Source of the DNA: Bdellovibrionales bacterium
GTDB lineage: Bacteria > Bdellovibrionota > Bdellovibrionia > Bdellovibrionales > UBA1609
DNA length: 32,867 nucleotides
Assembly (NCBI GenBank): GCA_022842925.1
Contig: JALHOQ010000007.1
Location: 6,253-39,119 of the forward strand
Reading direction: 5' to 3'
The translations under genes were made by a program, and so were the position numbers. Numbering within the stretch: the first letter of the stretch is position 1; each line of letters opens with the position of its first letter. Of this stretch, positions 8,126 to 10,060 are shown piece by piece. Under the pieces are notes generated by a model, which was not told the origin of the DNA, did no database searches, and was given only the letters and a program-made list of their open reading frames with translations.

Positions 8126-8590
8126 CTAGAAGTAACCTTCGTCGTCGTCGCTTCCCACTTCATCGTCCAAGTCATCGGCGTCGTCAAACGGCTCAACTTC
8201 AGTCTCGGCGAGGTTATCGTCTTCCACGGAATCCATATCGTCATCTCCGGCGACGGTTTCGGACATGCTCTCAAAATCCATGGTTTCCTCGGTCTGACCC
8301 ATGGTCGAGCCGAAGGCGCCACCCAAAGCTCCACCCACTGCCCCAGCGCCCAGAGAGGCGGCTGTCGAGGTTTTTGCTTTTTTGGGAGTCGGCGATTTTT
8401 TCGCGGCCTTTTTCGGAGCGGCTTTTTTGGTTGTCAGTTTCTTGCCGGTGACCTTTTTGGCCAACATTTTCTTGCCCGCTTTTTTAGCGGGCTTCGCGAT
8501 TTTCTTCGCGGCCTTTTTTGTGGTCTTTTTCGCGCCTTTTTTGGCGGTTTTCTTCATCGTCTTTTTCGCTTTTTTCTTAGCCTTAGCCAT
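8126..8590 (-). CDS. Histone-H1-like Lys/Ala-rich protein with Gly/Ala segment and acidic C-terminal tail
   Basis: MAKAKKKAKKTMKKTAKKGAKKTTKKAAKKIAKPAKKAGKK...ASLGAGAVGGALGGAFGSTMG...EDDNLAETEVEPFDDADDLDDEVGSDDDEGYF; start taken at in-frame ATG 8590. Confidence 0.8.
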   Translation of the reverse strand: MAKAKKKAKKTMKKTAKKGAKKTTKKAAKKIAKPAKKAGKKMLAKKVTGKKLTTKKAAPKKAAKKSPTPKKAKTSTAASLGAGAVGGALGGAFGSTMGQTEETMDFESMSETVAGDDDMDSVEDDNLAETEVEPFDDADDLDDEVGSDDDEGYF

Positions 8591-8710
8591 TCGAGAAACT
8601 CCCGTTTTTTTATTTCCTGCGATCAAAGTCGCGAGTACCACTCAGTTTTATGCCATTAAATTGTGGAGTGTGAAGGGGAAAGGCCCAATGGCGCATAGCA
8701 TTAGGTGGGG

Positions 8711-8797: not shown

Positions 8798-9631
8798 TTA
8801 ACCGATCAATTTGAGGGCGACCGAGCTCGTCTGATTGGCCTGCGCCAGGGCGGCGGTCGAAGCCTGGAGCATGATCGTATTACGCGTCAGCTCCGAGGAC
8901 GAGTTGGCCATGTCCGTGTCCCGGATACGGCTATTGGCGGCAGCCATATTCTCTTCGAAGACACCGAGGTTTTGCACGGTCGAGAGCAAGCGGTTTTGGA
9001 GGGCACCGAGATTGGCGCGCATTCCGTTCACTTTCTCTTGAGCGGCATCCAGAAGAGACAGGGATTCCTGAGCGCCGAGTTTCTCGTTGTAATCCATTCC
9101 AGAAAGGCCCAGAGCGTCCAAAGTGGCGACGTTCACCGAGGCATCAAAGCTGATGCGATCGTCGAATTCGTCATTGTAGATGCCGACTTGGAAGTCGAAG
9201 GTTGGAGTGGAGCCGTCGAGCAGCTTCGTCTTGCCCCAAGTGGTGGCCGAGGCGATACGTTGCATCTCGTTTTTCAACTGTTGAATTTCTTTGTCTACGA
9301 AACCGCGCTCGAGATTCGACACCGTGTCGGAAGCGGCCTGGATGCCCAGTTCGCGCATACGGACGATGATGTTGCCGATTTCGTTTAATCCACCCTCAGC
9401 GGTTTGCACCATCGAGATACCGTCGTTGGCGTTTCGGTTCGCCTGACGGGTCGAGCGGATTTGCCCCTTCAAATTTTCACTGATCGCGAGACCAGCGGCA
9501 TCGTCAGCGGCTTTGTTGATTCGTGAACCCGAAGCCAGCTTTGACAAGCTGTCTTGGATGTTCATTTGGCTGCCCAACAGATTTCTCTGAGCATTAACGG
9601 CAGCGATGTTTGTACTTACTCGCATTCCCAT
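8798..9631 (-). CDS. fliC: Flagellin
   Basis: MGMRVSTNIAAVNAQRNLLGSQMNIQDSLSKLASGSRINKAADDAAGLAISENLKGQIRSTRQANRNANDGISMVQTAEGGLNEI and C-terminal ANSSSELTRNTIMLQASTAALAQANQ, classic D0/D1. Confidence 0.97.
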   Translation of the reverse strand: MGMRVSTNIAAVNAQRNLLGSQMNIQDSLSKLASGSRINKAADDAAGLAISENLKGQIRSTRQANRNANDGISMVQTAEGGLNEIGNIIVRMRELGIQAASDTVSNLERGFVDKEIQQLKNEMQRIASATTWGKTKLLDGSTPTFDFQVGIYNDEFDDRISFDASVNVATLDALGLSGMDYNEKLGAQESLSLLDAAQEKVNGMRANLGALQNRLLSTVQNLGVFEENMAAANSRIRDTDMANSSSELTRNTIMLQASTAALAQANQTSSVALKLIG

Positions 9632-9636
9632 TGTAG

Positions 9637-9657
9637 TTATCCTCCATTAAATTTCAT
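9637..9657 (-). CDS. Putative leader peptide (uORF) MKFNGG upstream of flagellin
   Basis: Minus strand AAGGAGGT-AATTCGAA-ATG AAA TTT AAT GGA GGA TAA; stop is 5 nt before the flagellin ATG; the GGAGG in its last sense codons is the flagellin Shine-Dalgarno. Confidence 0.5.
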   Translation of the reverse strand: MKFNGG

Positions 9658-9705
9658 TTCGAATTACCTCCTTGTGTTTTTTCCCCGCGCAGTTATTTGC
9701 TTGAG

Positions 9706-9732
9706 GGTCCGGCATCCAGGCCGATTTTTTTA
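9706..9732 (-). promoter_or_regulatory. Putative sigma28 (FliA) promoter for flagellin
   Basis: Minus strand TAAAAAAA-N11-GCCGGACC, matching the TAAA-(N15)-GCCG core layout of flagellar sigma28 promoters; the second half of the -10 is degenerate. Confidence 0.45.
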
Positions 9733-10060
9733 AGGGTACGTATAAAACTTACCTCTCACTCAGTTTTCCATGTACGACAAGTTCGTCGTCCTTGATCCTC
9801 CCTTTCATTCGAAGTGCTAGAGGTACCATGCTCTCTAGTCCGTTGTTGCATTCAGCTTTTTCCATCGTGAAGACAGGAACTGAATGTGTACTCCTGTTCT
9901 CACTCACGCATAACAGTTCGGGATCGGCATCGGATTCTTGACGGGGTTAAGGTCTAAATTGGACTTTGCTCGTGCAAGATTGGCCCTTAGGTGGAGTGCT
10001 CTTCGTCGAGAAAGGGATGAAGGTACTAGGGAGGTAAGTCGGGTCTGTTTAGCCGTTGAG

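Follow-up and report, generated by a model that had tools for sequence, protein, structure and literature searches.

A flagellin gene of a Bdellovibrionales bacterium, located in the 32,867-nucleotide stretch of DNA that was analysed (the window), is preceded by a six-codon open reading frame (ORF) with its own Shine-Dalgarno sequence. We propose, with a probability of roughly 0.7, that this conserved leader minicistron delivers ribosomes to the flagellin gene and that, in the FliC5 group of flagellins, its Shine-Dalgarno sequence (SD1) is the target of CsrA-type control. Read from sequence, the leader is very probably a natural minicistron that couples flagellin initiation to the leader ORF. 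The feature is real and deeply conserved; that this coupled ORF serves as a CsrA control point in the Bdellovibrionales, we regard as probable. A wider generalization, in which minimal minicistrons of ~5-6 codons, the last being the next Shine-Dalgarno sequence, serve flagellins across the phylum and the CsrA-FliW feedback of the Bdellovibrionales hits the minicistron and not the flagellin Shine-Dalgarno sequence, is tentative and somewhat short of probable.

Layout of the flagellin leader

The earlier note on this DNA described a leader ORF with a perfect Shine-Dalgarno sequence that stops 5 nt before a flagellin gene, and re-reading of the sequence bears out this layout exactly (Table 1). 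On the minus strand, SD1 is followed after 8 nt by the leader ATG (9657-9655), the minicistron reads ATG AAA TTT AAT GGA GGA TAA, and the 5-nt gap CTACA (9636-9632) leads to the flagellin ATG (9631-9629). The two glycine codons do double as the flagellin Shine-Dalgarno sequence (SD2), as had been claimed. The 16S 3' end CACCTCCTT is present in a congener and in a genome that we take to be that of B. bacteriovorus HD100; hence, AAGGAGGT is a full match to the anti-Shine-Dalgarno sequence of these relatives. The 16S tail of the genome itself was not found, the gene presumably being absent from this MAG.

Table 1. Features of the flagellin leader and gene (window coordinates)
Feature	Position	Strand	Basis
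Flagellin gene, counterpart of Bdellovibrio FliC5 by best match	8798..9631	minus	Pfam and best match
SD2, flagellin Shine-Dalgarno sequence GGAGGA, two Gly codons of the minicistron	9640..9645	minus	sequence
Leader minicistron ATGAAATTTAATGGAGGATAA (MKFNGG, stop)	9637..9657	minus	sequence and conserved layout
SD1, minicistron Shine-Dalgarno sequence AAGGAGGT	9666..9673	minus	full complement of relatives' 16S 3' end
Putative CsrA/RsmA-type site ACAAGGAGGT, CANGGA core, overlapping SD1	9666..9675	minus	CANGGA statistics
GGA-loop hairpin CGGC-CTGGAT-GCCG, candidate upstream CsrA site	9710..9723	minus	group statistics and MFE
Weak candidate FliA (sigma-28) promoter TCAAG-N15-CCGAAC, tentative	9916..9941	minus	read from sequence

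The downstream ORF is indeed a flagellin, with Pfam matches to Flagellin_N (5.2e-36) and Flagellin_C (3.9e-19), and is among seven clear flagellins of the genome, which also has one weaker PF00669 match. Its best match in the genome assumed to be HD100 lies near 2.96 Mb, where we expect fliC5 (Bd3052). We infer that it is the counterpart of FliC5 from this best match and because the 2.96-Mb position was matched to Bd3052 by locus-tag order. FliC5 (Bd3052) is described as abundant in the proximal filament and belongs to the class of major filament proteins (PMC2791853). Another flagellin of this genome (L002, 1453-1488) has a four-codon minicistron, ATG CAA GGA GGA TAA, with CAAGGAGG upstream; it ends 2 nt before the flagellin start, and 18 nt separate the GGA motifs. 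Directly downstream of the window flagellin gene lies a very lysine-rich, histone H1-like ORF (8126-8641, minus strand). A scan of the leaders for FliA promoters (consensus TTAAG-N16-CCGATA; PMC3627812) gave weak matches only. The tentative candidate in the window has three mismatches and would give a leader of ~280 nt; FliA-like sites also occur 210-270 nt upstream in some relatives.

Conservation of the minicistron

Within the order, we collected the best flagellin match of each of 102 genomes, giving 73 non-redundant leaders that still share ancestry. Under fixed rules, a Shine-Dalgarno sequence, an ATG, a short ORF and a stop before the flagellin were found in 86 of the 102 genomes and 58 of the 73 leaders. 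When the stretch between the two Shine-Dalgarno sequences was shuffled, 6.4 +/- 2.1 (maximum, 14) of 64 leaders kept the layout, against 56 observed. Almost all leaders carry (A)CAAGGAGG or a near variant with the ATG 3-10 nt further on; the ORF usually has 4-9 codons and stops before the flagellin, and some leaders of the FliC5 group have this stop ahead of SD2. The stops are TAA (51) or TAG (7), and AAA is the most frequent second codon, just as it is at ordinary starts. Across the order and the phylum, the peptides vary freely (MKFNGG, MKNKY, MNLNGG, MKLDF, MFEGD, MLTGD, MTTKD), which indicates that it is the layout, not the peptide, that is conserved.

The layout is largely specific to these genes. 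The same detector, applied to upstream-free genes called with a simple gene finder in 400 kb of this genome plus the window and in 400 kb of a second genome (G048), found 2 of 246 and 2 of 217 (~460 genes in all); three of the four detections were flagellins, that of the window included. Among second-best flagellins, 5 of 17 have the layout, and most other flagellin paralogues of the same genomes have no minicistron. The earlier note had named loss of the frame or stop in close relatives as a refutation, and two of three congeners (L014 and L026) do have no leader ATG, although they retain SD1, with its CsrA-type site, and SD2. The minicistron is therefore dispensable in some lineages, and SD1 has some use without the ORF.

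Searches for flagellin leaders covered the phylum Bdellovibrionota. A pattern of GGAGG together with an ATG and a start like that of a flagellin, with no stop required, matched in 249 of 369 genomes, against five, as read from the table, for the reversed control, and the matches that were sampled encode flagellins. The upstream frame is closed before the flagellin in 125 of the 128 distinct strings among the matches listed, whereas the other frames close in 73 (+1) and 49 (+2) of these strings, which points to selection on frame and stop; families outside the order supplied most of the strings, and many strings are close relatives of one another; 128 is hence not a number of independent events. 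Of the 125 closed leaders, 121 are 5 or 6 codons long and 124 stop 1-4 nt short of the flagellin ATG; GGA is retained as a codon in 109 strings, which typically read ATG nnn nnn GGA GAY TAR. The contrast between frames is weaker in the FliC5 set, where frame 0 closes in 59 of 59 leaders and the others in 55 and 45. On a flagellin tree the trait requires at least 13 changes and is concentrated in four groups; as part of the tree was sampled by pattern match, the tree shows that the trait occurs in several paralogue groups and does not give rates.

A putative CsrA site at SD1

CsrA/RsmA sites have a consensus of the CANGGA type, against which SD1 was scored. SD1 is CANGGA in 52 of 58 non-redundant leaders of the FliC5 group, with A, C, G or T at the third position, whereas the Shine-Dalgarno sequences of background genes fit in 25 of 230 cases. 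A fixed CA and a free third base before GGA are expected of a CsrA/RsmA site and not of Shine-Dalgarno strength alone, and SD1 in this group looks like a putative CsrA repressor site. SD2 is CANGGA in 1 of 24 leaders and often ACGGA. Further upstream, 33 of 73 leaders have a GGA-loop hairpin that usually resembles GGCUCGGAUGCC; shuffles give 1.3. In the window, where the MFE structure of the leader also has a hairpin at this place, the GGA of the loop lies 46 nt upstream of that of SD1, within the range of 10-63 nt over which CsrA bridges GGA sites (PMC7652899). The genome has two copies each of csrA and fliW; both genes are near-universal in flagellated members of the phylum, so that their co-occurrence is uninformative about a role for CsrA. 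The earlier reading of SD1 as a Shine-Dalgarno sequence stands, and to it are now added the CsrA-type site, the hairpin and the csrA and fliW genes. Given CANGGA at the leader Shine-Dalgarno sequence of the FliC5 group, CsrA and FliW probably act on the minicistron, by analogy with the action of CsrA on iraD ORF27. Searches of open-licence papers gave no report that CsrA/FliW controls flagellin in Bdellovibrio.

Several further observations were made in these genomes. The two csrA-fliW pairs of this genome lie on contigs C197 and C207, and nearly all relatives have one; a duplication or a mixed bin is possible. Several small genomes of the same family (for example, G004, G016, G017 and G020) have kept csrA and lack both fliW and a match to this flagellin, suggesting loss of the flagellum. 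A hairpin of at least 5 bp with a GUAGG loop occurs in 10 of 181 leaders, against 1.4 in shuffles (among them L003 [177, 1488], L033, L068, L071 and L075), and sometimes replaces the GGA-loop hairpin. Two Bdellovibrionales-type flagellins (L061 and L073) come from records titled as a Streptomyces griseus MAG, a title that looks wrong.

SD1 could be a CsrA site and nothing else, paired with a hairpin further upstream in the manner of the Bacillus hag leader, with an ATG and stop that are incidental or weakly used. The CANGGA signature, the presence of csrA and fliW, and the two congeners with SD1 and no ORF are consistent with this. CsrA has no need of an ATG and an in-frame stop, however, yet these are conserved far beyond chance, even where SD1 is not CANGGA. 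Among the Bacteriovoracia-type matches from other families, the minicistron occurs with an SD1 that is CANGGA in only 4 of 30, so that the CsrA layer is not universal and the minicistron is no by-product of the CsrA site. We consider a CsrA site alone unlikely, although no other alternative fares better.

Proposed ribosome hand-over and its alternatives

Both Shine-Dalgarno sequences of the leaders are more open than those of background genes (0.54 and 0.55 vs 0.32; p<1e-6), the entire window leader is no more stably folded than its shuffled versions (z = -0.28), and an Rfam search of the leader gave no match. Unmasking of SD2 by structure is not supported, given this openness and the z score; open sites with no excess of folding fit a hand-over of ribosomes better.

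In the mechanism that we propose, a ribosome would load at the strong, open SD1 and translate 5-6 codons. The leader stop lies 0-5 nt before the flagellin start (5 nt here; ~10-30 nt in some relatives), and SD2 lies inside or beside the last leader codons; a terminating 30S subunit would thus sit over SD2 and could re-initiate on the flagellin. In this way the minicistron would supply ribosomes to a very abundant protein, as a natural equivalent of the synthetic bicistronic design (BCD). Flagellin that is not exported would bind FliW and so leave CsrA free, and free CsrA would block initiation on the minicistron in the FliC5 group and, through coupling, on the flagellin as well.

The same arrangement might instead act as a dosage brake, in which ribosomes on the minicistron block access to SD2 and mostly leave the mRNA at the stop, limiting flagellin. 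SD1 is at least as strong as SD2, an elongating ribosome must cover SD2, and some leaders of the FliC5 group stop ahead of SD2. On the other hand, stops 1-4 nt before the flagellin in nearly all phylum matches are the geometry of efficient coupling, and the target belongs to a class of major filament proteins (PMC2791853); a brake seems about as unlikely as a CsrA site alone, or marginally more so. The earlier note had offered occlusion and re-initiation jointly. Conservation of the layout across the order and phylum strongly supports the leader ORF and coupling and, with the open state of both Shine-Dalgarno sequences, favours hand-over; occlusion is less likely.

SD1 may also be a ribosome standby or mRNA-stabilizing site of the STAB-SD type, the ORF merely clearing bound ribosomes. 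A strong, open site close to a highly expressed gene would suit this, as would SD1 without an ORF in L014 and L026, but it leaves frame closure and the geometry of 5-6 codons and 1-4 nt unexplained and is improbable. An attenuator or stalling peptide responsive to a metabolite or drug, suggested by a short leader ORF ahead of a regulated gene, is very improbable: the peptides are diverse, no conserved peptide or run of regulatory codons was found, and Rfam gave no match. A chance Shine-Dalgarno sequence and ATG, conceivable for so short an ORF, is refuted by the rarity of the layout before other genes, its excess over shuffles and its conservation across the phylum.

If ribosome hand-over by the minicistron is correct, a short ORF kept across a phylum for its position alone would be direct natural evidence of ribosome-delivery minicistrons for high-output genes, for which the examples to date are largely engineered or isolated ones. 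Predatory Bdellovibrio would gain a testable post-transcriptional flagellin switch, and the flagellin minicistron would offer synthetic biology a compact natural coupling part.

Comparison with known systems

Delivery of ribosomes by short ORFs is one of the reviewed models of translational coupling (PMC12548453); no flagellin leader ORF in Bdellovibrio was reported in the open-licence papers searched. The BCD (Mutalik 2013), as described in PMC6302717, has an accessible RBS1 and a short leader ORF that holds RBS2 and stops at the target start. The flagellin leaders share these elements, but they are natural and conserved, have 5-6 codons, usually stop 1-5 nt before the start without overlap, and serve a target whose Shine-Dalgarno sequence is open from the outset.

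E. coli iraD ORF27 (idlP) is a tested case of CsrA repression through a coupled upstream ORF (PMC5574718). Here too a CsrA-type site lies over the upstream Shine-Dalgarno sequence in most of the FliC5 group and the upstream stop adjoins the main start. However, ORF27 is 27 codons long and RNA structure sequesters the Shine-Dalgarno sequence of iraD, whereas the flagellin leaders mostly have 4-9 codons and SD2 is open; the target is a flagellin, fliW is in the genome, and the action of CsrA is putative.

The Bacillus subtilis hag leader is governed by the CsrA-FliW-Hag system (reviewed in PMC7652899). It resembles ours in being a flagellin mRNA with two GGA sites, one of them over a Shine-Dalgarno sequence, in a genome with csrA and fliW. 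The pairing of a GGA in a hairpin loop with a GGA over a Shine-Dalgarno sequence is present in the window (9723-9710 and SD1), the hairpin occurring in under half of the leaders. The second site in hag covers the flagellin's own Shine-Dalgarno sequence, whereas the putative site here covers that of the minicistron.
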